A stretch of 64,000 nucleotides of DNA from the NCBI GenBank assembly GCA_018269005.1, contig JAFDVK010000032.1:62001-126000 (forward strand), read 5' to 3'. Below are positions 718 to 55,180 of this stretch, piece by piece. Position 1 is the stretch's first letter, and each line of letters starts with the position of its first letter. Origin of the DNA: Acidobacteriota bacterium (GTDB taxonomy: Bacteria > Acidobacteriota > Blastocatellia > Pyrinomonadales > Pyrinomonadaceae). Made by a program: the position numbers and the translations under genes. The notes beneath the pieces are model-generated. The model worked only from the letters and a program-made list of their open reading frames with translations. It ran no database searches and had not been told where the DNA came from.

Positions 718-1380
718 CTAGATCAGCCCGGCCAACTCCGCTCGGCGAACGGCCTCAAGGCGCGAGTGTGCATTGAGCTTTTTTAAGATGTGCTGGATGT
801 GGTTGTCAGCCGTGTTACGGCTGATATGAAGGTCCTTAGCTATCGACGGTGAAGTTTGCCCGGTAGCCAAGAGCTTTAAGACTTCCCGTTCTCGTGCCGT
901 AAGTTCTGTCTCGCTAACACCTGATCTCGTCGTTCGCACGAGCGCAGCAGCCTTTTCTTGGGGTAAGCTAACCTCGGTTATCAAAAAATCCCGAACAGCA
1001 AGCTCGAGGCGTTTACGGACATCAACAGGCCGGAGGATGTGTACCGTATAGGGCTCTCTGGTGTTATTTTCCCGCGCAATAATTACTGACATATTGCACC
1101 ATTGCCTGCCCGACGGTGTTTCGACCTTAAGATCGAAATGGTGGATGGGATGGTTCTTCCCTGCCGCTTGTTTGATCGAGCAATTTTCGGTGCAGACCTT
1201 ACCGCATTCGTCCATGCCTCTGACGACCACATGGCAGAATTCGCCGATCGCCGCTTTGGCGTTGACACCGAATAAATTCTCCGCCGCATGATTGAGCGCG
1301 ACAATCGCCCCGCTACTATCCGTTACGAAGGCAGCGTCTGCGGTTCCCTCGATGAGTTCAAAGATACTTCGTAGGCGCAT
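718..1380 (-). CDS. PAS-LuxR one-component regulator with a four-cysteine cluster
   Basis: A protein of about 220 residues. An N-terminal PAS domain (about 5-120, FVTDSSGAIVALNHAAENLFG) is followed by a LuxR/GerE helix-turn-helix (about 155-215, LTAREREVLKLLATGQTSPSIA...SRNTADNHIQHILKKL). There is no receiver or kinase domain, so sensing and DNA binding sit on one chain. Inside the PAS domain four cysteines fall at about 49, 59, 63 and 67 (C-x9-C-x3-C-x3-C, including DECGKVCTENC), a plausible iron-sulfur or zinc site. The family role is transcription control. A redox or oxygen signal is my inference from the cysteines and from the divergent Rrf2 and nar genes. I chose the ATG at 1380, 6 bases after GAGG. 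ATG 1383 and TTG 1392 are alternatives. Confidence 0.85.
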   Translation of the reverse strand: MRLRSIFELIEGTADAAFVTDSSGAIVALNHAAENLFGVNAKAAIGEFCHVVVRGMDECGKVCTENCSIKQAAGKNHPIHHFDLKVETPSGRQWCNMSVIIARENNTREPYTVHILRPVDVRKRLELAVRDFLITEVSLPQEKAAALVRTTRSGVSETELTAREREVLKLLATGQTSPSIAKDLHISRNTADNHIQHILKKLNAHSRLEAVRRAELAGLI

Positions 1381-1411
1381 CATCAACCTCAACTAGAAAA
1401 ATGATACCAAC

Positions 1412-1434
1412 AGACTATTGTTCAATCAAAGTCT
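1412..1434. promoter_or_regulatory. Candidate dyad operator between the PAS-LuxR and Rrf2 genes
   Basis: The inverted repeat AGACT (1412-1416)...AGTCT (1430-1434) spans 23 bases, with the partly symmetric centre TTGTTCAATCAA. It lies 30 bases upstream of the minus-strand regulator start and about 50 upstream of the plus-strand one. It does not fit the Fnr 5-4-5 spacing. The regulator that binds it, if any, is unknown. Confidence 0.35.
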
Positions 1435-1456
1435 TGCCTGAATACTAATAAGGACA

Positions 1457-1471
1457 AAAAGATACGCTTTT
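1457..1471. promoter_or_regulatory. Candidate Rrf2 autoregulatory operator
   Basis: A perfect AAAAG-ATACG-CTTTT inverted repeat ends 12 bases before the Rrf2 ATG. AT-rich dyads of this size next to the gene are common for Rrf2 repressors (NsrR/IscR class). No good Shine-Dalgarno lies between it and the ATG, so the mRNA leader may be very short. Confidence 0.4.
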
Positions 1472-1954: not shown

Positions 1955-2850
1955 GTGAACGGAATGGAAATGCAAAGCGTGCTAAAACGAGCCAAAAGGG
2001 CCATTGTAGAGCTAGCTGTCGCCGGGCTTTTAATATTTTTTGCGACCCTAACGGGAGCAACAAGAACGCAGGCTCAAGATGATGGAGCGAAGTTGTTTGA
2101 GACCCGTTGCTATAGCTGCCACAACATCGGCGGCGGTGATAAACAAGGTCCTGACCTCAAAGGTGTGACCGAGCGCCAATCGCGGGAGTGGATCGAAGAG
2201 TTCGTTAAGTCGCCGACAGCGATGAGCCGAAAAGATCCGGTGGCGGCCGAACTCTTTAAAAAGTTTTCGCCGACGATAATGCCGGATCAGACGCTGACAC
2301 CCGCGGAACTGGACTCGATCATTACCCTAATTAAGAATCTGACCTCCAAGAACGAAAATTTTGTACCGTCAGGCGCAAAGCTTTCCCGAGCGATCGTCCC
2401 AGCGGACATCATCGCCGGAAAGGAGCTATTCACCGGCCAGATCCATCTTGCGAATGGTGCTCCGAGCTGTAATTCGTGCCACAGCGTAAACGGAGTCGGA
2501 GCGCTTGGCGGCGGAACACTGGGGCCTGATCTTACCGCCGCCAATATTAAGTATCGCGATCCTGAATTGATCTCTATATTGCAGAGCCCGAACTTTCCGA
2601 CGATGAACACCATCTTTGCGAATCACAAACTTACTGACGAAGAGGTCGTCCAGCTTTTTGCATATCTGCAGAATGCCAAGCAGGTTTATCCGGAGGCCAG
2701 CGTTGTGCCGACGCAGGCTGCCGCTACAACCGACCCGCGATTTCTGGTCCTTGGCTTTGGAGCGGCAACTCTTGTGTTGATCGGATTGAACGTCTTCTGG
2801 AGGAAGAGATCACACGGCGTGCGTAAGGAGATGGTTCGGAGGTCGAAAAT

Positions 2851-2854
<4 letters not shown>
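1955..2854 (+). CDS. Dihaem cytochrome c at the head of the nar unit (NarC-like)
   Basis: A 299-residue protein. It has an N-terminal signal/anchor helix (about 17-36), two cytochrome c domains with CYSCH (52-56) and CNSCH (172-176), and a C-terminal membrane helix (about 264-283) followed by WRKR. The haem domains should face the periplasm. Its ATGA overlap with narG shows co-translation. In Thermus nar operons a dihaem cytochrome c (NarC) occupies the same place and serves as electron carrier and anchor for NarGH. By analogy it may link quinol oxidation to NarGHI or accept electrons from alternative complex III. The start is GTG 1955 after AGAGG, with in-frame ATG 1964 possible. Confidence 0.85.
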
Positions 2855-6492
<3,638 letters not shown>

Positions 6493-6507: not shown

Positions 6508-8004
6508 ATGGACGTCAGACTGCAAGTTTCAATGGTTTTTCATCTCGATAAGTGTATCGGATGCCACACTTGTTCGATCGCCTGCAAGAATGTTTGGACC
6601 GACCGCAAAGGTGCCGAATATATGTGGTGGAACAATGTCGAGACGAAGCCCGGCACGGGCTATCCGACAAAATGGGAAGATCAGAGCAAGTACAATGGCG
6701 GTTGGGAAAAGAAGGGCAACGGCAAGCCCGAGTTGAAAATGGGCAACCGTGCCTCACGCCTGATCAACATCTTTCACAATCCATCCCTTCCGAAGATGGA
6801 TGATTACTACGAGCCATTCACTTACAAATACGAAGATCTATTTGATTCTCCCGAAGGAGCGGACCAACCGACGGCACGCCCGATCTCGATGGTGACCGGA
6901 AAGTTCATGGATATCGAGGCCGGGCCAAATTGGGACGACGATCTTGGCGGTTCACCTGTTTATGCTGAGAATGACCCGAACTTCGAAGGTCTCTCGCCCG
7001 AAGAGCAGCAGGAGCTTTTTGATGTCGAACGCCTTGTTTTCTTTTATCTCCCACGCATCTGCAATCATTGTTTGAATCCGGCTTGCGTTGCTGCTTGTCC
7101 CTCCGGTGCTATCTACAAACGCGGTGAAGACGGCATCGTCCTCATAAATCAGGAAGTTTGTCGCGGCTGGAGAATGTGTGTTTCTGCCTGCCCGTATAAG
7201 AAGACATACTATAACTGGTCGACCGGAAAGAGCGAAAAGTGCATCCTCTGTTTTCCGCGTTTGGAAACGGGGCAAGCGCCGGCTTGCTTTCATTCCTGCG
7301 TCGGACGTATCCGATATCTCGGCGGCATCCTGTATGACGCTGATCGCCTGACCGATGCCCTTAATGTCGATGACGACAAGCTCGTCGAAGCTCATCGCGA
7401 CCTCATTCTTGACCCACGCGACCCGGTTGTCCGCGAAAAAGCGAAGGAGAACGGCATCGACGAGCGAACGCTTGAAGCTTGCGAACGCTCGCCTGTGTAT
7501 CGCTATGTGAAAGAGTGGAAAATGGCCCTTCCCCTGCACTCCGAGTTCCGAACGCTTCCCATGCTCTTTTATGTTCCGCCTCTCTTGCCGGTGATGGCAA
7601 AGACCGAGAACGGCGTTTACGAGACGGCAAATGATGAGCTTTTCAGCCCGATCGAAAAGGCCCGCCTTCCTATCAAGTATCTAGCAAGCCTCTTCTCTGC
7701 GGGAAATACGGATCAGGTCAGCTATGCGTTGAAGAAGCAGTATGCGGTGCGGCTGTTCAAACGGCTCGAAACTGTGGGCGACGTGTCTCAAGAAGTTGTC
7801 GACAAAGCACTTGCCGAGTGTGGAATGGATGCCGCAGAGGCCGAGGCCGTCTATCGTCTCACTTCTCTTCCGACCATGGACGAGAGGGTCGTGATTCCGC
7901 CGATGCATCGTGAAGAAGCGATGGCGATGCTCGACGACGATATGTGGGAGCAAAAAGGCTCCGCAGGATTTGGCTTCAGAGAAGCGCCGGTAAGAGGAGC
8001 ATAA
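6508..8004 (+). CDS. narH: Nitrate reductase beta subunit NarH
   Basis: A 498-residue iron-sulfur subunit carrying electrons from NarI haems to NarG. Four cysteine groups are visible: CIGCHTCSIACK (16-26), CNHCLNPACVAACPSG, CRGWRMCVSACPY and CILCFPRLETGQAPAC. The tryptophan in RGWRMC replaces a cysteine, as in other NarH proteins where that cluster is [3Fe-4S]. The start has a clear AGAGGGA ribosome site. Length and order fit narGHJI. No break or missing ligand was seen. Confidence 0.97.
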   Translation: MDVRLQVSMVFHLDKCIGCHTCSIACKNVWTDRKGAEYMWWNNVETKPGTGYPTKWEDQSKYNGGWEKKGNGKPELKMGNRASRLINIFHNPSLPKMDDYYEPFTYKYEDLFDSPEGADQPTARPISMVTGKFMDIEAGPNWDDDLGGSPVYAENDPNFEGLSPEEQQELFDVERLVFFYLPRICNHCLNPACVAACPSGAIYKRGEDGIVLINQEVCRGWRMCVSACPYKKTYYNWSTGKSEKCILCFPRLETGQAPACFHSCVGRIRYLGGILYDADRLTDALNVDDDKLVEAHRDLILDPRDPVVREKAKENGIDERTLEACERSPVYRYVKEWKMALPLHSEFRTLPMLFYVPPLLPVMAKTENGVYETANDELFSPIEKARLPIKYLASLFSAGNTDQVSYALKKQYAVRLFKRLETVGDVSQEVVDKALAECGMDAAEAEAVYRLTSLPTMDERVVIPPMHREEAMAMLDDDMWEQKGSAGFGFREAPVRGA

Positions 8005-8009
8005 GCTTT

Positions 8010-8657
8010 GTGCAGACAGAACTAACCCAACTCACTCGCAAAAAACTCTCGGCGGCTTCCGATCCCGTTCAGTATGCTCGCTCGCACACGCCGGACATCG
8101 AAGATATCTATCTTGGAAAAGCTGCTGCAGGACCCCCGGCCGCCTTTGCAGATATCTTCGAGTATCCGGACGACAACTGGTCCTTGCGCTTGGAAGCCTT
8201 AACCGCGGCGATGCGGGACAAGCATTTGATCAACGAACAGCTCTCGGAGTTCAGCCGGAAGACCGAGACAATGTCGCTGATAGATCTTCAAGAGCTATAC
8301 GCCCAGTTCTTCGATCTGAACCCAAACTGTGCATTGGAGATCGGCTATCACCTCTTTGGCGAAGACTATAAGCGCGGTGCATTTCTCGCGAATCTTCGTG
8401 AGACCGAAGGCGACCTTCAACTGGGCCAGGACCAGCAGCTTCCCGACTATCTTCCGGTGCTGCTCAGGCTGCTCGCACATTTGGAAGACGACGAGTTGAG
8501 AGGCTCGCTTGCGGGCCATTGTGTGATTCCGGGCGTCAAGAAGATCATCACAGCCTTTAAGGGAGAAAATCCGTACGTTGATCTCTTGAATGCGGTTCTT
8601 TCGGCCCTTACACAAGCGGTTAATAGTGAGAACGACCGGGTGCCGATCATCGATTAG
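8010..8657 (+). CDS. narJ: Nitrate reductase molybdenum-cofactor assembly chaperone NarJ
   Basis: About 215 residues, TorD/NarJ family, a cytoplasmic chaperone that holds apo-NarG while the cofactor and FS0 cluster are inserted. Typical features are FADIFEYPDDNW near residue 50, FDLNPNCALEIGYHLFGEDYKRG and LPDYLPVLLRLLAHL. A longer in-frame reading begins inside narH. I chose GTG 8010, 5 bases after the narH stop and preceded by AAGAGGAG (7992-7999) at good spacing. It is slightly shorter than E. coli NarJ (236). Confidence 0.93.
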   Translation: MQTELTQLTRKKLSAASDPVQYARSHTPDIEDIYLGKAAAGPPAAFADIFEYPDDNWSLRLEALTAAMRDKHLINEQLSEFSRKTETMSLIDLQELYAQFFDLNPNCALEIGYHLFGEDYKRGAFLANLRETEGDLQLGQDQQLPDYLPVLLRLLAHLEDDELRGSLAGHCVIPGVKKIITAFKGENPYVDLLNAVLSALTQAVNSENDRVPIID

Positions 8658-8665
8658 GTGTGCTT

Positions 8666-9403
8666 ATGATGGACAATTTACTTTTCATCGTCCTGCCGTA
8701 TATTGCGGTAACTCTCTTCGTTGTTGTATCGATCTACCGATACATAACGGACAAGTTTTCGTACTCGAGCCTTTCATCACAGCTATTGGAATCGGACGAG
8801 CTCTTCTATGGCGTTGTGCCTTGGCACATTGGGATCATCGGGGCGCTGACGGGCCACTTGATCGGCTTCCTCTTCCCCAAAGAGGTGTTGTGGTTCAACG
8901 GCGTCCCGGTGCGGCTATATATTCTTGAGACGACCGGGCTGGTCTTCGGCTTGTTGGCGTTGATAGGCATAGTCGCCCTTATGTGGCGTCGGATCAGAGT
9001 GCCGCGGATTCGATCGGTTACTTCGACGGTCGATACGATCGTTCTCGTGCTGCTTTTCGCACAGGTCGTGCTCGGCGTTTACACGGCCCTCTTCTACCGC
9101 TGGGGTTCATCGTGGTATGCCGCGTCCGCAGTGCCTTATCTGCGTTCGCTTCTCTTCTTCCAGCCCGATATCGAGATGGTCAAGCCGCTGCCGCACATTA
9201 TCAAAACGCATATTATCAATGCCTTTTTGATAATCGCGATCTTTCCGTTCTCGCGACTCGTTCATATGGTTTCGTTGCCGATCGAATATCTATGGCGGCC
9301 ATATCAGGTCGTTATTTGGAACTGGAATCGAAAGAAGATCCGCGGGCAGTACTCGCTTTCAAACGCAAAAGAGGATTCAGAACTGAACGTGATCGGTCGA
9401 TGA
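8666..9403 (+). CDS. narI: Nitrate reductase gamma subunit NarI (dihaem cytochrome b)
   Basis: About 245 residues and five predicted membrane helices. It oxidises quinol and passes electrons to NarH. The two pairs of haem histidines are visible as WHIGIIGALTGH (helix 2) and KTHIINAFLIIAIFPFSRLVH (helix 5). The basic C-terminus (WNWNRKKIRGQ) should dock to NarGH inside the cell. The start is ATG 8666 after AGGTG; GTG 8660 and ATG 8669 are alternatives. Having its own NarI means the complex should work without the upstream cytochrome c, which makes that extra gene worth explaining. Confidence 0.95.
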   Translation: MMDNLLFIVLPYIAVTLFVVVSIYRYITDKFSYSSLSSQLLESDELFYGVVPWHIGIIGALTGHLIGFLFPKEVLWFNGVPVRLYILETTGLVFGLLALIGIVALMWRRIRVPRIRSVTSTVDTIVLVLLFAQVVLGVYTALFYRWGSSWYAASAVPYLRSLLFFQPDIEMVKPLPHIIKTHIINAFLIIAIFPFSRLVHMVSLPIEYLWRPYQVVIWNWNRKKIRGQYSLSNAKEDSELNVIGR

Positions 9404-9421: not shown

Positions 9422-10009
9422 ATGAGCCTGACAACACTAAAGATCCTAATGATATTGATCACACTTATAGGGGCGTTCCTTGTTTGGCAGGGTAAGACGT
9501 TCCGGATCTACGGTGATCAGCTGGGTTACGAGCCGATTCAGCCGATCAATTTCTCCCACAAACTTCACGCGGGCGACAACCAGATCTCGTGCCTTTTCTG
9601 TCATTCCTCTGCAGATAAGTCGAAGGTCGCGGGTGTTCCGCCCGCATCGACCTGTATGAACTGCCACTCAAAGGTCTTGCCTGATTCGCCCGAAATACAA
9701 AAGATCACGACGGCGATCGCGGATAACAAGCCGATCGAGTGGGTGAAGGTAAACGATCTGCCTGACCTTGTTGCGTTCAACCACAGCAGACATGTCACGT
9801 CAGGCATCAGTTGCCAGACCTGCCATGGAGCGGTTGAGACAATGGAGCGACTCTCACAGCAAAATGCTTTCACCATGGGAGACTGCGTAAGCTGTCACCG
9901 AACGCACCGCGAGGTCACTTTGGACGACGCAGGAAAGCCGCAGATCGCCCGAGAGAATACCGCACAGAAGCTGATGGCTTCGACGGACTGCTCAGTTTGT
10001 CATCACTGA
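9422..10009 (+). CDS. actA: Alternative complex III subunit A, pentahaem cytochrome c
   Basis: A 195-residue protein. It has an N-terminal membrane anchor (about 5-22) and five CxxCH haem sites: CLFCH, CMNCH, CQTCH, CVSCH and CSVCH. FSHKLHAG and FNHSRHV supply likely distal histidines. In alternative complex III this subunit faces the periplasm and takes electrons from ActB toward ActE and soluble carriers. The haem number matches known ActA proteins. It begins 18 bases after narI with no terminator between, so the two systems look co-transcribed. Confidence 0.94.
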   Translation: MSLTTLKILMILITLIGAFLVWQGKTFRIYGDQLGYEPIQPINFSHKLHAGDNQISCLFCHSSADKSKVAGVPPASTCMNCHSKVLPDSPEIQKITTAIADNKPIEWVKVNDLPDLVAFNHSRHVTSGISCQTCHGAVETMERLSQQNAFTMGDCVSCHRTHREVTLDDAGKPQIARENTAQKLMASTDCSVCHH

Positions 10010-10021
10010 TGATCAAAAGCT

Positions 10022-12928
10022 ATGAAGGATAAGCTCTGGAAGCAATTTATCGACGAGGACGACCGCGGTTTGCCTGTTTTGCAAAACGGCAATGGGATCT
10101 CGCGCCGAACATTTCTCGAAGCGATCGGCTATACGACCGCCGCGATCGCATTGACAAGTTGCGCGACGCCGGAACAAAAGGTGATCCCGTACTTAAAGCA
10201 ACCACCAGAACTTACACCGGGCGTTGCGAACTGGTACGCCTCGACCTGCGGCGGCTGCAGTGCAGGTTGCGGAATGCTCGTGAAGGTCCGCGACGGCCGT
10301 CCGATAAAGGTCGAGGGTAATCCCGAACACCCAATAAGCAAGGGTGCACTTTGTCCGGTTGCCCATTCGCTGGTCTTCGGCCTTTATGATGCCGAACGCA
10401 TCCAGCAACCGCTTATCGGCGGAAAGACGGCGGCTTGGAGCGATGTCGATGCCCAGATCATCCAGAAACTGACTGCTCTAAAGGGTTCCAACGGAAAGAT
10501 CAGGTTTTTGTCGAAGACGATCGTCAGCCCAAGCTCTCGAGCGACGATCAACAAGTTCCTTTCACAGTTCAAGGACGCAAAGCATGTCGTTTACGAACCT
10601 GTCTCAACATACGGCGTGCGGGCGGCGCATCTCCGTACTCACGGGGTTGAGGCTCTTCCGTTTTACAATTTCGACAAGGCAAAGGTCGTCGTAAGTTTTG
10701 GGGCAGACTTCCTTGGAACATGGATCTCACCTGCGGCATTCATTCGCGGCTATTCCGAGGGAAGGAATGTAAATGAACGCAAGCAGGATATGCTGCGCCA
10801 CATACAGTTTGAATCCCGATTGTCTCTCACCGGTGCCAATGCCGATAAGCGAGTGAAGATCAGCCCGGCAGAAGAGGCTGACGCTCTCTTATTTTTGGCG
10901 AAGTTGGTTGGCGGCAGCTCGCAATCTTCCGTCCTCTCAGGAATTGAAACCGCAAAACTCTCAGAGGCAACGAAGGCTGCCCTTCAAAAATGTGCTGCTG
11001 AGTTAACGAAGGCAAAAGGTTCGTCTCTTGTGGTCTGCGGGTCGAACGACGCCGATAAACAGCAGATCGTAAACCTTATCAACCAAAGCTTAGAAAATTA
11101 CGGAAAGACGATCGTCGTCAGTTCGACCGCGTCCGAGGGCCAGAGCAAAGACGAAGATATCCAAGGCCTTTTCCAGGAAATAAAGGACGGCTCGGTCGCG
11201 GCCCTGTTCGTTCTCGATGCCAATCCGGCCTACGATCATTTTGCGGGGCCTGAATTCCTGTCCGCCTTGAGCAAGGTTCCGCTAAAGGTGTCGCTAAGCC
11301 CGACGCTCGACGAGACAACATCGGTGGCCGACTTTGTTTGCCCGACGCATCATTCACTTGAAGCGTGGGATGATGCAGAGGCGGTCAGCGGTGTGGTTAG
11401 TACGGTTCAGCCGGCGATCGCCCCTTTGTTCCAAACTCGTGCGTATCAGGAAAGCCTTATGCGGTGGAGTGGTGACGAACGCCGCTACTACGATGCGTTG
11501 CGAGCCGAGTGGCAGACGCGATACTTCGCCGGACAGAGTACGTTCAAAACGTTTGATGATCTTTGGGACAAATCTCTTCACGATGGTGTTTACCGACCAT
11601 CTGCCGCCCCGGCGGGTCCACCCGCGTTCAAAGCCGATGGCATCAATGAAGCCGCCGCAAGAATGGCTGCAGGGCCGGGTGGCGACGGCCTTTTCGTCGC
11701 CCTCTATCCGAAGGTGACCTTGCGTGACGGTAGATTTGCAAATAATCCGTGGCTGCACGAGATTCCAGATCCCATCACGAAAACAACTTGGGACAATTAC
11801 GCATGTCTTTCACCCAACGCGGCCGCTAGAGCTAGTCTTGCCGAGGGGCAATTCGTTCGAATCCAGAAAGGAAATATTGCCGTCGAACTGCCTGTGATGA
11901 TTCAGCCGGGACAGGCGGATGATTGCGTTGCCGTCGCGGTCGGGTATGGCAGGACGAAGGCCGGCAAGGTCGGTACTGGACTTGGCGCGAACGTCTTTCC
12001 GTTCGTAGAGTTCACAAATAACACTTTCCACTACGACTCAAGTGGTGCTTCCCTAACTGCCGCATCCAACTTTACGAGGTTCGCAAAAACACAAACAGAA
12101 GCTTCGGCCGAAGGCCGTCCGTTGATCAAAGAATATTCGCTGAATGAATTTGTTGCCGGCCATCTTCACGAAGAAAGCGAAAAGCAGATCGACCTCTGGA
12201 AACCGCACGACTTTCCTGAACACAAATGGGGAATGGTCATCGACCTGAACTCGTGCGTCGGCTGCAACGCTTGTGTATTGAGCTGCCAGGCCGAGAACAA
12301 CATTCCGGTTGTCGGCAAGGATGAGGTTCATCGGCGTCGTGAGATGCATTGGATGAGGATCGACCGATATTTTGATGAAAAGCAGGATGGGACAACCACA
12401 AGATTTCAGCCGATGACGTGCGAGCATTGTGATAATGCGTCTTGCGAGACGGTTTGTCCGGTGCTTGCGACCGTCCACTCGAGCGAAGGCCTGAATATGC
12501 AGGTCTATAACCGTTGCGTCGGTACCCGATATTGCGCTAACAACTGTCCATTTAAGGTACGGCGATTTAATTGGTTCTTGTATCCGCACGATGATCCGAT
12601 CGCAAATCTTGCCCTAAATCCTGACGTGACTGTTCGAAGTCGCGGTGTTATGGAAAAGTGCACTTTTTGCGTGCAGCGTATCGAGGAAGTCAAGATCCAC
12701 GCCCGCAATGAGGGCCGTCCGATCAAAGATGGCGAGATACAAACAGCTTGTCAACAAAGCTGTCCCGCGAATGCAATTAGCTTTGGCGATCTAAAAGACC
12801 TCGAAAGCAAGGTCTCAACGCTTCGGCACACGAAACGAAATTACATCTTGTTAGAAGAACTGAATCTCCGTCAGGGCCTCACCTATCTTGCCAAGGTGAA
12901 CAACGACGGCGACGATCTGGAGGGATAA
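10022..12928 (+). CDS. actB: Alternative complex III subunit B, molybdoprotein-like/ferredoxin fusion
   Basis: A 968-residue fused subunit. The N-terminus has a Tat motif (SRRTFLEAIG, about 25-34). Next is a molybdopterin-oxidoreductase-like domain with CGGCSAGCG at about 77-85. The C-terminal part (from about 730) has four cysteine groups: CVGCNACVLSCQ, CEHCDNASCETVCP, CVGTRYCANNCP and CTFCVQ...CQQSCP. In characterised complexes the first domain holds an iron-sulfur cluster but no molybdenum, so it is an electron conduit rather than an enzyme. The protein should be exported by Tat and bound to ActC on the periplasmic side. Confidence 0.95.
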   Translation: MKDKLWKQFIDEDDRGLPVLQNGNGISRRTFLEAIGYTTAAIALTSCATPEQKVIPYLKQPPELTPGVANWYASTCGGCSAGCGMLVKVRDGRPIKVEGNPEHPISKGALCPVAHSLVFGLYDAERIQQPLIGGKTAAWSDVDAQIIQKLTALKGSNGKIRFLSKTIVSPSSRATINKFLSQFKDAKHVVYEPVSTYGVRAAHLRTHGVEALPFYNFDKAKVVVSFGADFLGTWISPAAFIRGYSEGRNVNERKQDMLRHIQFESRLSLTGANADKRVKISPAEEADALLFLAKLVGGSSQSSVLSGIETAKLSEATKAALQKCAAELTKAKGSSLVVCGSNDADKQQIVNLINQSLENYGKTIVVSSTASEGQSKDEDIQGLFQEIKDGSVAALFVLDANPAYDHFAGPEFLSALSKVPLKVSLSPTLDETTSVADFVCPTHHSLEAWDDAEAVSGVVSTVQPAIAPLFQTRAYQESLMRWSGDERRYYDALRAEWQTRYFAGQSTFKTFDDLWDKSLHDGVYRPSAAPAGPPAFKADGINEAAARMAAGPGGDGLFVALYPKVTLRDGRFANNPWLHEIPDPITKTTWDNYACLSPNAAARASLAEGQFVRIQKGNIAVELPVMIQPGQADDCVAVAVGYGRTKAGKVGTGLGANVFPFVEFTNNTFHYDSSGASLTAASNFTRFAKTQTEASAEGRPLIKEYSLNEFVAGHLHEESEKQIDLWKPHDFPEHKWGMVIDLNSCVGCNACVLSCQAENNIPVVGKDEVHRRREMHWMRIDRYFDEKQDGTTTRFQPMTCEHCDNASCETVCPVLATVHSSEGLNMQVYNRCVGTRYCANNCPFKVRRFNWFLYPHDDPIANLALNPDVTVRSRGVMEKCTFCVQRIEEVKIHARNEGRPIKDGEIQTACQQSCPANAISFGDLKDLESKVSTLRHTKRNYILLEELNLRQGLTYLAKVNNDGDDLEG

Positions 12929-12934
12929 TCTCGA

Positions 12935-14371
12935 ATGGCAACAGCTTTGAAAGACATTGAGTTTCAAAACGCGGAAGAAGAGATACGGCTTCAGGGTGAG
13001 ATCGAACGGGTTACGGCCCATCCCGTTTATTCGCCGCTGCGAGAACCGCTGATCGATGAGAGCAAATCGTGCAGTGATGTTACGAATGACATCTGCGGCC
13101 TTCTTGAACGGCCTCCGCTTAGAGGCTGGTGGATCCTGTTCAGCATCTCCGTCGTATTGCTCGCACTCGGGATGATCGCGGCCGTCAACACAGTGACATT
13201 CGGGATCGGTACCTGGGGGCTGAATAAGACCATCGGGTGGGCCTTCGGAATCACGAATTTCGTCTTCTGGATCGGTATCGGCCACGCAGGAACCTTTATC
13301 TCGGCGATCCTTTATCTTTTCGGACAAAAGTGGAGAACGTCGATCAATCGCTCGGCAGAGGCGATGACGCTTATCGCCGTGATGTGTGCCGGTGTCTTCC
13401 CCATTCTTCATATGGGACGGCCGTGGCTCTTCTATTGGATCATGCCCTATCCGAATACGCGAGGATCACTTTGGGTCAATTTCCGTTCGCCGCTTTTGTG
13501 GGACTTCTTTGCGATCTCGACCTATTTCACGATCTCGCTGGTCTTTTGGTATCTAGGTCTTGTTCCCGATCTTGCGACAGCCCGTGATAGAGCAAAGAGC
13601 AAATGGCGGCGGATCTTCTACACGATCCTCAGCCTAGGATGGAACGGGGGCAACAGAACATGGTCGCGATACGAGACGGTCTATGGCGTGCTTGCGGCCC
13701 TTGCCACACCGCTCGTGCTTTCTGTCCACAGCATCGTTAGTTTCGACTTCGCCACTTCGCTCGTCCCCGGCTGGCACTCGACGATCTTTCCGCCGTACTT
13801 CGTTGCTGGAGCTGTCTTTTCGGGGTTTGCGATGGTTACAACCCTTCTTATCCCGGTGCGGAAGGTGATGCATCTTGAGGGATACATCACCATTCAGCAC
13901 CTGGACAATATGTGCAAGATCACCCTTCTGACCGGATCGATCGTTGGATTGTCTTACCTAACGGAGCTCTTCATCGGCTTTTACAGCGGGAATCCAAATG
14001 AGATCTTCGTGATCCTCAACCGTATGGGTGGACCGTATGCTTGGGCCTACTGGATCATGTTCAGCTGCAACGCGATCTTCCCCCAGCTGTTCTGGTTCAA
14101 AGCCTTCCGAACAAAGATTCCTCTGATCTTGGGGCTGTGCATTCTTGTTAACGTCGGAATGTGGTTCGAGCGCTTTGTTATCATTGTCACCAGTCTGCAC
14201 AGGGACTATCTGCCATCGAGCTGGGCGATCTTTATACCGACCTTGACCGATCTTGGATTGTTGGTCGGCAGCTTTGGACTGTTCTTTACGGCCTTCCTGC
14301 TCTTCTTAAGACTGTTTCCGGTTATTTCAATGAACGAGGTGAAAGGAGTTTTGCATTATGCGCGCGACTGA
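12935..14371 (+). CDS. actC: Alternative complex III subunit C (NrfD/PsrC-type quinol-binding membrane protein)
   Basis: A 478-residue protein with about ten membrane helices, NrfD/PsrC fold. The motif GIGHAGTFISAILYL and HMGRPWLFYWIMPYPN are characteristic of ActC. This subunit is the main quinol oxidation site. A strong GGAGGGA lies before ATG 12935. It overlaps actD by 14 bases. Length and order fit other act operons. Confidence 0.95.
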   Translation: MATALKDIEFQNAEEEIRLQGEIERVTAHPVYSPLREPLIDESKSCSDVTNDICGLLERPPLRGWWILFSISVVLLALGMIAAVNTVTFGIGTWGLNKTIGWAFGITNFVFWIGIGHAGTFISAILYLFGQKWRTSINRSAEAMTLIAVMCAGVFPILHMGRPWLFYWIMPYPNTRGSLWVNFRSPLLWDFFAISTYFTISLVFWYLGLVPDLATARDRAKSKWRRIFYTILSLGWNGGNRTWSRYETVYGVLAALATPLVLSVHSIVSFDFATSLVPGWHSTIFPPYFVAGAVFSGFAMVTTLLIPVRKVMHLEGYITIQHLDNMCKITLLTGSIVGLSYLTELFIGFYSGNPNEIFVILNRMGGPYAWAYWIMFSCNAIFPQLFWFKAFRTKIPLILGLCILVNVGMWFERFVIIVTSLHRDYLPSSWAIFIPTLTDLGLLVGSFGLFFTAFLLFLRLFPVISMNEVKGVLHYARD

Positions 14372-14903
14372 ACCAAGCGAGAAGACGGTGCGGTACACCG
14401 CCGCGTTTTTCGACAATGAACACGATCTGATGGCGATCGCTGCGGAGGCACGGCTTCGCGGATTTGAGATACAGGATGTCTTTTCTCCGTATCCCATCCA
14501 CGGCATGGATCGGGCTGTCGGCCTAGAGCGTTCCCGTTTGGGCTGGATCGCGTTCGCGGCGGGAGCTTTGGGTTTGATCTCGGCGATCCTGCTGCAAGTG
14601 TGGACGTCGGCTTACGACTGGCCGCTCAATGTTGGCGGAAAACCCTTTAACTCCTTTCCGCTCTTCGTGCCCGTGATGTTCGAGTTGACCGTCCTCTTCT
14701 CAGGGCTTATCTCGATCGGCGTTCTATTTATGATGAACAGGCTGTGGATCTTCAGTAAAAAGAAGATATTCGAAGGCGTAACGGACGACCACTTCGTGCT
14801 GGTGTTGAAACAAAGAGATGCCTCTTTTGACGCAGAAAAAGCAGCGCGTCTCTTCAAAAAGTACCGAGCGATAAAGGTAATGGAGGGTGACAAATTCGTA
14901 TGA
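14358..14903 (+). CDS. actD: Alternative complex III subunit D (DUF3341)
   Basis: A 181-residue protein with a cytoplasmic N-terminal domain (VRYTAAFFDNEHDLMAIA, IQDVFSPYPIHGMDRAVGL) and two membrane helices (about 60-80 and 97-118). DUF3341 is the diagnostic family for ActD. It binds the membrane core and has no cofactor. It overlaps both neighbours (14 bases with actC, ATGA with actE), which argues for coupled translation. Confidence 0.93.
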   Translation: MRATEPSEKTVRYTAAFFDNEHDLMAIAAEARLRGFEIQDVFSPYPIHGMDRAVGLERSRLGWIAFAAGALGLISAILLQVWTSAYDWPLNVGGKPFNSFPLFVPVMFELTVLFSGLISIGVLFMMNRLWIFSKKKIFEGVTDDHFVLVLKQRDASFDAEKAARLFKKYRAIKVMEGDKFV

Positions 14904-15460
14904 AAAGGAGCGTTACAATAGCTTTCTTTCTTCTGTTGCCAGTCATAGTCATCGGTGGAATGGTCGGATTTAGCCGTGACCAGACGAAAAGGAATCGAGA
15001 GTTCCCTACGCAGATGGAATACTCGCCAGCCTATCTTTCTCAAACGGCAAATCCGGTACTGCCGAAAGGTATGACCTTGCAGCCGCCGGTCGAGGGAACC
15101 GTCAGACGAGGTTTTATGCCGTTCCACTACGGTCCGGGCCTTGACGAAGAGGCTCGGGCCGGGAGGGAGCTTATAAATCCGTTCCAGCCGACACAAGAGA
15201 ATCTCGACCGCGGAAAGTACATATTCACCAACGATTGCGCTGTTTGTCATGGAGCAACGGGTGCAGGCGACGGACCGATCATACCAAAGTTCCCGAACCC
15301 GCCCTCTTATCACACTGATACATCGAAGGCTCTGCCGGACGGCGCGATGTTTCACATAATCACGATGGGAAGGAACAACATGGGATCTTACGCAGCCCAG
15401 GTCGCACCGGACGATCGTTGGAAGGTGATTCTCTATATTCGCAACCTGCAGAAAAAGTAA
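14900..15460 (+). CDS. actE: Alternative complex III subunit E, monohaem cytochrome c
   Basis: A 186-residue protein. It has an N-terminal signal or lipoprotein-like anchor helix (about 5-22) and one cytochrome c domain with CAVCHGATGAGDGP (about 113) and a likely axial methionine in the ITMGRNNMGSY segment. In the family this is the exit haem that passes electrons to a terminal acceptor. No oxidase genes follow here, so the acceptor is open. The start overlaps the actD stop (ATGA). Confidence 0.93.
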   Translation: MKRSVTIAFFLLLPVIVIGGMVGFSRDQTKRNREFPTQMEYSPAYLSQTANPVLPKGMTLQPPVEGTVRRGFMPFHYGPGLDEEARAGRELINPFQPTQENLDRGKYIFTNDCAVCHGATGAGDGPIIPKFPNPPSYHTDTSKALPDGAMFHIITMGRNNMGSYAAQVAPDDRWKVILYIRNLQKK

Positions 15461-15463
15461 GCT

Positions 15464-16672
15464 ATGGCAAAGAATGAATTGACGAACGGAATGGAGCGAA
15501 ACGTCTTGATCGGCTTGCTCGTGCTAGGGGTCGTGGGCAGCGTAGCGGGATTGATGTCGAGTGACCGCTTTTGGTTCAGTTTCCTGCAGAACTCGATATT
15601 TGTATTAACCATAGCCCTTGGAGCGGTGCTTTTTGTTGCCTTCAAGTCGGTGTCAAACGCCGGATGGGCTACAGTTTTTCGCCGCGTTCCGGAAGCAATG
15701 ATGGCATATGTCCCCATCGGCGGGCTGCTTCTTCTACTTGTCTATTTCGGTAGGAACACGCTATATCCGTGGACGAACCCTGCTATGGAGACTCACGGTG
15801 CCGGTCTCGAGCTTGGTTTCAAGCATTTATGGCTTAGCACGCCATTCTTCTTTGCCAGAATGGTCGCCTTTCTTGCGATCTGGTGCGGACTGATCTATGG
15901 AATAAGGAAGGCATCATTTCAGCAGGATACGGATGGGAGCGTCGAACATACGCGACTGAGAAAGATATACTCATCGATCTTCATTGTGGTGTTCGGGATC
16001 ACGTTCTCCCTTGCTTCGTTCGATTGGATAATGTCGCTGGAGCCGATGTTCTATAGCACGATCTTTGGGTTTTATATGATCGCCGGAACCCTTACGAGCA
16101 GCGCCGCGGCCATAACGATCCTGGTCGTTTGGCTTAAACAGCGAGGATATCTTCCGGCTGTTGGGGACAAGCATATGCACTATCTTGGCCAACTCGTAAT
16201 GGGGTTTGCCACGTTCTGGGCATATATGTGGATTTCGCAATATCTACTGATCTATTATGCCAATCTTCCCGAAGAGACTATTTACTATTATCGGAGAACC
16301 GGCACCACCGGTTGGTTCACGGTCTTTATTGTCAACCTGTTCTTGAATTGGGTGATCCCGTTCATGATGCTTCTTCCCCGACAGGTCAAAATGAATGCAA
16401 AATGGATGGTCGCCGCCTGTACGATCGCCCTCGTTGGACACTGGCTGGACCTTTACTCCATGATATTTCCTGCATTTTTTGGAAGCCCTATGGTCGGCTA
16501 TGTCGATATTGCATTATTGGTCGGGTCTATCGCTCTCTTCTTGCTTGTGTTCTTTAGAAGTCTTGGAGCTAAGGGACTTGTTCCCCGTAATGATCCGTAC
16601 CTCGAAGAGAGCGTTGAACACGAGCACCTCGAAATCGTGCACTCCCTCAAGGCCGGTACTGCGACCGATTAA
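15464..16672 (+). CDS. actF: Alternative complex III subunit F (second NrfD-like membrane subunit)
   Basis: A 402-residue protein with about ten membrane helices. It is a distant copy of ActC and completes the ABCDEF set. Typical sequence includes AFLAIWCGLIYGIRKAS, FDWIMSLEPMFYSTIFGFY and WAYMWISQYLLIYYANLPEE. It is proposed in the family to take part in proton translocation. Its gene ends the unit that began with the dihaem cytochrome c; a hairpin follows at 16732. Confidence 0.95.
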   Translation: MAKNELTNGMERNVLIGLLVLGVVGSVAGLMSSDRFWFSFLQNSIFVLTIALGAVLFVAFKSVSNAGWATVFRRVPEAMMAYVPIGGLLLLLVYFGRNTLYPWTNPAMETHGAGLELGFKHLWLSTPFFFARMVAFLAIWCGLIYGIRKASFQQDTDGSVEHTRLRKIYSSIFIVVFGITFSLASFDWIMSLEPMFYSTIFGFYMIAGTLTSSAAAITILVVWLKQRGYLPAVGDKHMHYLGQLVMGFATFWAYMWISQYLLIYYANLPEETIYYYRRTGTTGWFTVFIVNLFLNWVIPFMMLLPRQVKMNAKWMVAACTIALVGHWLDLYSMIFPAFFGSPMVGYVDIALLVGSIALFLLVFFRSLGAKGLVPRNDPYLEESVEHEHLEIVHSLKAGTATD

Positions 16673-16777: not shown

Positions 16778-19689
<2,912 letters not shown>

Positions 19690-54420: not shown

Positions 54421-54505
54421 AAATTTGTCCGATATACCACCGAGGAAGTGCTTATTTCTCAAACGCTTACGGCAGGCAAAGTTGATTCGAAACCTTACAA
54501 AAATG

Positions 54506-55180
54506 TCAGCCTTCGAGGTGAGACGACAATCCATCGATGGAGTCGATCAGGATCTTGCCGCGTACGATCCTAATATCGCCAATTGCGGCAAGATGCCGGA
54601 TCGTCCTAATGGCTGTTTCCGTGGTCAGCCCGGCCATTCTAGCGATATCTTCGCGCCGAAGTTTTACCTTGTGCGGCGGTTCGTCGCTTGATGCAGTAAA
54701 CAAGCGGATGAGTACGCCGGCAATTCTTTGCTCGGCAGAACCACCCGCGAGGGTCCTTATCAGCGCGGTCTTTTGCCGGAGCATCGACGACATCCAACGC
54801 AATAGCGTCAGCGTGAATTCAGGCGACTTCTCAAGAAGCTTGAAGACATCGTTGCGGTGGAGCAGTAAGATCTCGGACTCTTCGAGAGCGTATGCCGACG
54901 CAGGATAAACATCACCATCGACGACCGGAGGAACCGCGAACATCTCGCCCGCACCGAAGATCCCGATTATCACTTCCTTTCCCGGTTCCGGAAACTGCAC
55001 CATCTTCACGCGGCCGTTTAAGATGATCGGCAGATATTCAGCTTCTTCCCCGACGGCAAAAAGCTCTTCGTTCGGGAAATAATGACGGTGGTTACCGTGC
55101 GAAGTCAGGTTCTCTCTGAGTTCGTTGCTCGCCGTCGCGAGTATCGGGTTGACCCGACGGGGATTGTTCGATCTTGTCAT
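54506..55180 (-). CDS. Crp/Fnr-family transcriptional regulator
   Basis: A 224-residue protein. The cyclic-nucleotide-binding-type sensor domain (about 30-150, YFPNEELFAVGEEAEYLPIILNG) is followed by a Crp-type helix-turn-helix (REDIARMAGLTTETAIRTIRHL). The recognition helix keeps the Glu and Arg that read TGA half-sites. There are no clustered cysteines as in Fnr, so it is more like Dnr/NnrR or another haem or ligand-sensing type. It ends 239 bases upstream of the molybdoenzyme operon, whose gap carries a matching palindrome. ATG 55180 is chosen; a start at 55195 is possible. Confidence 0.88.
   Translation of the reverse strand: MTRSNNPRRVNPILATASNELRENLTSHGNHRHYFPNEELFAVGEEAEYLPIILNGRVKMVQFPEPGKEVIIGIFGAGEMFAVPPVVDGDVYPASAYALEESEILLLHRNDVFKLLEKSPEFTLTLLRWMSSMLRQKTALIRTLAGGSAEQRIAGVLIRLFTASSDEPPHKVKLRREDIARMAGLTTETAIRTIRHLAAIGDIRIVRGKILIDSIDGLSSHLEG

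Follow-up and report, generated by a model that had tools for sequence, protein, structure and literature searches.

In staphylococci, nitrate respiration is controlled by the NreB/NreC system, which combines PAS cysteines encoded beside nar genes with an output protein of the LuxR type (NreC). The cysteines of the NreB PAS domain are spaced C-X2-C-X11-C-X2-C. The domain has four cysteines and an oxygen-labile 4Fe-4S cluster (PMC4601167). One-chain iron-sulfur regulators of anaerobic respiration or of the NO response are exemplified by FNR, which recognizes the DNA site TTGATNNNNATCAA (PMC4601167), and by NsrR, in which three cysteines and a noncysteine ligand (Asp) are enough for a 4Fe-4S cluster (PMC5411485). 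PAS and LuxR domains are also joined in the PteF-type regulators of Streptomyces, which control polyene antibiotic clusters (PMC9394381).

The current study deals with a window of 64,000 nucleotides (the whole stretch of DNA that was analyzed) from a 3.55-Mb genome of the Acidobacteriota, in which a cysteine-containing PAS-LuxR regulator is encoded close to narGHJI. Our literature search found neither an account of nitrate-respiration control in this phylum nor a report of a PAS-LuxR regulator with such cysteines. For acidobacterial nitrate respiration, the locus offers a candidate regulator together with its probable binding site and a promoter that two sensors would control, and the system is small, consisting of two small proteins and 103 bp of DNA (1381 to 1483).

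The PAS-LuxR regulator and its respiratory neighborhood

The regulator gene (718 to 1380, minus strand) starts with an ATG at 1380, whose M1 is conserved, and encodes 220 amino acids. A PAS domain (Pfam; E value of 2.7e-7, above the cut-off) followed by a GerE/LuxR helix-turn-helix (Pfam; E value of 8.7e-19, likewise above the cut-off; residues 159 to 214, 739 to 906, minus strand) assigns the protein to the one-component PAS-LuxR regulators, and no receiver or kinase domain was found by Pfam in the 220 residues. The first-pass annotation had thus correctly located the open reading frame and its C-x9-C-x3-C-x3-C motif, and its description of a sensor and a DNA-binding domain on one chain, with neither kinase nor receiver, is confirmed. 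Its statement that the gene lies next to nar is accurate as to the presence of narGHJI but left out two genes in between, i.e., that of the system partner, an Rrf2-family regulator with the cysteines C26, C92, C99, and C105 (1484 to 1933, plus strand), and that of a diheme cytochrome c (1955 to 2854, plus strand), the first enzyme gene of the operon. The regulator gene is divergent from this Rrf2-cytochrome c-narGHJI unit, which continues on the plus strand with narG (2851 to 6492; TIGR01580), narH (6508 to 8004; TIGR01660), narJ (7944 to 8657; TIGR00684), and narI (8660 to 9403; TIGR00351). All four Nar proteins exceed the NCBIfam cut-offs; the listed narJ frame overlaps narH, and its true start may be further downstream.

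Alternative complex III-like genes (QrcA/ActA-like multiheme c, ActB-like, NrfD-like, and more small subunits; 9422 to 16672) continue the nar cluster with no large gap, and two adjacent, opposed paralogues resembling tryptophanase/tyrosine phenol-lyase are located at 16778 to 18172 (minus strand) and 18166 to 19689 (plus strand). A mobile or viral origin of the regulator was dismissed, because no relatives were found in viral contigs and plasmid matches cover the helix-turn-helix only.

In a survey of 162 Blastocatellia genomes, narG was present in 26, the regulator in 45, and both in 23 (Fisher P value of 1.3e-12, which overstates independence since the surveyed genomes are related), and the two genes lie no more than about 5 kb apart in all 23. 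A separate clade of the regulator adjoins Rrf2-Rieske-cytochrome b-cytochrome c-ccoN-ccoO (bc/cbb3) operons, and further members are found beside genes for the RIC/YtfE iron-sulfur repair protein, hemerythrin, and NnrS. These neighbors suggest that the signal is O2, NO, or redox and not nitrate itself. The proposal of a switch for nitrate respiration is accordingly supported by the nar linkage (23 of the 26 narG genomes) but loses its nitrate specificity through the bc/cbb3 clade, on account of which a nitrate-only switch was abandoned. Judged from comparative sequence data, PAS-LuxR probably switches nitrate respiration locally in response to oxygen, nitric oxide, or redox.

With respect to other candidate regulators, the two Crp-type proteins of the source genome that exceed the cut-off both lack FNR-type N-terminal cysteines. 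A cysteine-free Crp/Fnr-type regulator in the window (about 54484 to 55172, minus strand) adjoins the gene of a 362-aa membrane protein, a homologue of which precedes a NasC-like reductase gene in another genome.

Conservation and possible function of the PAS cysteines

The regulator contains cysteines at positions 49, 59, 63, 67, and 95 (counted from the ATG at 1380), and the clustering of four of them inside 19 residues is reached in 0.8% of random placements. The respective codons are located on the minus strand between 1180 and 1236 (C49, 1234 to 1236; C59, 1204 to 1206; C63, 1192 to 1194; C67, 1180 to 1182), within the PAS segment used for comparison (residues 1 to 127; 1000 to 1380, minus strand). 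An alignment of 52 homologues from the same class (Blastocatellia) revealed that C49, C63, and C67 are kept in all of them, that D83, W94, and H114 are equally invariant, and that C59 and C95 are present in 42 and 37 sequences, respectively. C49, C63, and C67 are likewise kept in 50 of 50 aligned PAS domains from the wider Acidobacteriota, an alignment that excluded one acidobacterial outlier of the first scan without the three cysteines (L129), and their spacing across the family is C-x13/14-C-x3-C. Three changes of C59 are needed on the family tree, and since a locus with Thr at this position (L050) is still nar linked, a four-cysteine cluster is not required. On the basis of these alignments, the real motif is C-x13-C-x3-C, and the fourth cysteine is a later, dispensable addition within a lineage. 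What had been annotated as a four-cysteine set is therefore upheld for three invariant positions and not for C59; the objection that the cysteines might lack conservation among orthologues does not apply to C49, C63, and C67 and partly holds for C59.

Most of the strong matches in Chloroflexota share the three-cysteine spacing, with close variants in the remainder. Chloroflexota PAS proteins that have the same or a slightly varied spacing and in which no LuxR domain was detected (L243 to L253) indicate that the motif is not bound to one output domain. A Pseudomonadota sample gave no match at an E value of 1e-15, which is a weak test and proves little.

Structural data shed little light on the cysteine segment: a PDB profile search gave general PAS domains only, with no solved structure containing this cysteine set, and the best matches align mostly upstream of it. 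An AF2 model built from six sequences dropped to a pLDDT of <50 exactly over the cysteine loop, and cluster geometry was therefore not taken from it.

The cysteines are likely to constitute the sensor and are likely to bind an iron-sulfur cluster. The latter is our leading idea because NsrR manages with just three cysteines and an Asp, because the neighboring genes handle NO and Fe-S damage, and also because the Crp-type proteins of the source genome lack the FNR cysteines. A metal-free thiol switch, in which a disulfide, persulfide, or S-nitrosothiol at C49/C63/C67 alters DNA binding at the same operator and targets, is unlikely but deserves consideration: cysteine-only redox PAS sensors are known, e.g., ArcB with two PAS cysteines (PMC4601167), and three invariant cysteines alone are no proof of a metal, but the C-x3-C pair and the third cysteine, together with the invariant H114 and D83, resemble a ligand set, and the NO and Fe-S repair functions of the neighbors are also at odds with it. 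The variable fourth position would suit a structural zinc or other mononuclear metal in the PAS domain, for which three cysteines plus a His or a fourth Cys are a common set, with another ligand being sensed in the PAS pocket; the genes linked to the regulator (nar, cbb3, and Fe-S repair) point instead to cysteines that report O2, NO, or redox, and we consider the zinc explanation quite unlikely. There is hardly any probability left for a blue-light photoreceptor of the LOV type that is fused to a LuxR domain, in spite of the best fold match to EL222 and the identical one-chain layout. None of the 50 aligned domains shows the GxNCRFLQ signature of the reactive cysteine around C49; Asn, Phe, and Gln of NCRFLQ are absent throughout and the Arg is present in two cases only, and this identity was rejected.

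Two conserved blocks in the divergent intergenic region

The divergent intergenic regions share the footprint AAATGAT-N8-ANYATTGTY, the core of which is a 20-bp inverted repeat. In the window, this block 1 (AAATGATACCAACAGACTATTGTT; 1399 to 1422, plus strand) is the proposed PAS-LuxR operator, with its core AATGAT-N8-AYYATT at 1400 to 1419. It is positioned 18 bp upstream of the PAS-LuxR start and 61 bp upstream of the Rrf2 start, conservation is near zero immediately downstream of it, and it falls into the region (1381 to 1483) that the first-pass annotation had picked for DNA-binding tests. Searching the 162 genomes with the block 1 pattern yielded 39 matches. The 31 genomes that contain them all have the regulator, the 117 genomes without it gave none, and a reversed control pattern matched twice; many of the 39 represent loci from which the pattern was derived, and the independent evidence consists of the remaining ones. 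Block 1 is found 17 to 20 bp upstream of the regulator start also at loci without a nearby Rrf2 gene and precedes PAS-LuxR in four genomes without a detected Rrf2 orthologue (G069, G090, G092, and G097). Where the regulator and Rrf2-nar are apart (L051, L053, L056, and L063), each of them is preceded by its own copy. Additional copies are located upstream of some genes for NarK-family transporters, a NasC-like reductase operon, an unlinked Rrf2-bc operon, and bc/cbb3 oxidase operons. A one-mismatch site (G000:C25:9498), which overlaps a coding start, was discarded as being at chance level. Blastocatellia narGHJI loci lacking both PAS-LuxR and block 1 also exist (L225, L226, and L228 from genomes G154 and G014), and a different Rrf2-type gene adjoins nar at L228.

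Block 2 (GGACAAAAAGATACGC; 1452 to 1467, plus strand) is the proposed Rrf2 operator. Its position weight matrix, with the consensus GGACAAARARRTACGC, was built from linked loci only and detects the block 27 to 33 bp downstream of block 1 before Rrf2-nar and, more weakly, before NarK genes; block 2 was not detected by the matrix after block 1 copies that belong to the regulator only or lie at loci without Rrf2. A composite search for both blocks gave 32 matches in 26 genomes, all of which have both regulators, and zero matches in the control. At L215 and L216, blocks 1 and 2 are placed between a NarK-type transporter gene (L216) and a gene pair encoding a YwiC-like and a radical-SAM protein; in Bacillus, a YwiC gene is likewise located near nar.

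A possible Rrf2-nar promoter, TTGTTC (1418 to 1423) and AATACT (1441 to 1446) separated by 17 bp on the plus strand, is a weak match recognized by eye and was not reported by the consensus promoter scan. If this element (1418 to 1446) is the promoter, block 2 is located at the transcription start of Rrf2-nar. The scan returned a weak promoter match for the PAS-LuxR gene at block 1, and since block 1 overlaps with potential promoter sequences of the two divergent genes, it may be conserved in part as promoter DNA. The location of block 1, mostly in the intergenic region common to both regulator genes, would also agree with an Rrf2 operator or shared promoter DNA, with PAS-LuxR acting elsewhere. 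This alternative is improbable, given the block 1 copies before PAS-LuxR in the four genomes with no detected Rrf2 orthologue and before NarK genes distant from both regulators, its absence from all genomes without PAS-LuxR, and the fact that it is block 2 that tracks Rrf2.

The Rrf2 partner scores below the cut-offs of the NCBIfam models for NsrR, IscR, and RirA and passes that of the Rrf2 superfamily alone, but it has the three conserved cysteines expected of these regulators: C92 and C105 are present in 32 of 32 sequences and C99 in 24, the others having a gap at this position. It is likely an Fe-S/NO sensor.

Proposed mechanism and comparison with known systems

New in this study are the co-occurrence of narG and PAS-LuxR and the ties of block 1 to PAS-LuxR and of block 2 to Rrf2. 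Our working model takes the cysteine conservation, the gene linkage, the two sites, and the genes downstream of them from comparison, and from these we infer physical binding, the pairing of proteins and sites, the sign of regulation at each site, the presence of an Fe-S cluster, and the nature of the signal. The regulator would be a cytoplasmic one-component protein with three invariant cysteines around the helix E/F loop region, joined in this clade by a fourth, and its PAS domain probably holds an O2/NO-labile iron-sulfur cluster. At low oxygen and with the cluster bound, a PAS-LuxR dimer would occupy the 20-bp inverted repeat of block 1 (1400 to 1419) next to the nar -35 region, at about -45, and activate Rrf2-cytochrome c-narGHJI. 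The distance of 18 bp between block 1 and the PAS-LuxR start codon suggests that the same binding probably damps the regulator's own gene, while Rrf2, bound to block 2 around the likely transcription start, would repress the nar promoter. We give this model in its entirety, with an Fe-S PAS-LuxR activator that damps itself and an Rrf2 repressor, an even chance of being correct.

Binding of an Fe-S cluster by the cysteines would give a function to a PAS motif that occurs in at least two phyla. The more far-reaching view, which is conceivable but which we hold with some reserve, is that PAS domains with the three-cysteine set (C-x13/14-C-x3-C) form a widespread, hitherto undescribed subfamily of Fe-S gas/redox sensors fused directly to LuxR. 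In Acidobacteriota, this subfamily would replace FNR and NreBC in the control of both nitrate respiration and cbb3 oxidase, acting through an operator of its own on a promoter that also receives input from an Rrf2-type sensor.

In comparison with NreB/NreC, the present system has one chain with neither kinase nor receiver, its partner is an Rrf2 protein and not NreA, and three instead of four cysteines are invariant with a different spacing. The histidine kinase domain and the C-X2-C-X11-C-X2-C arrangement of NreB are both absent, which places the protein outside the NreB family, and the likeness to NreB proposed in the first-pass annotation thus fails in its four-cysteine detail, while an NreB-like role is plausible. 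EL222 and VqmA, the best fold matches of the regulator, share its one-chain PAS/LOV-LuxR layout, but the former senses light via a flavin and the latter the small molecule DPO, and, as far as tested, the cysteine set is found in neither of them. The PteF-type regulators of Streptomyces have the domain pair in common with it and lack the link to respiration. FNR and NsrR are similar in the proposed mode of action, but their folds (Crp and Rrf2, respectively) are unrelated to that of the regulator and their DNA sites are different. Overall, the regulator matches EL222 and VqmA in layout and NreBC or FNR in its proposed role, and its cysteine motif is its own.
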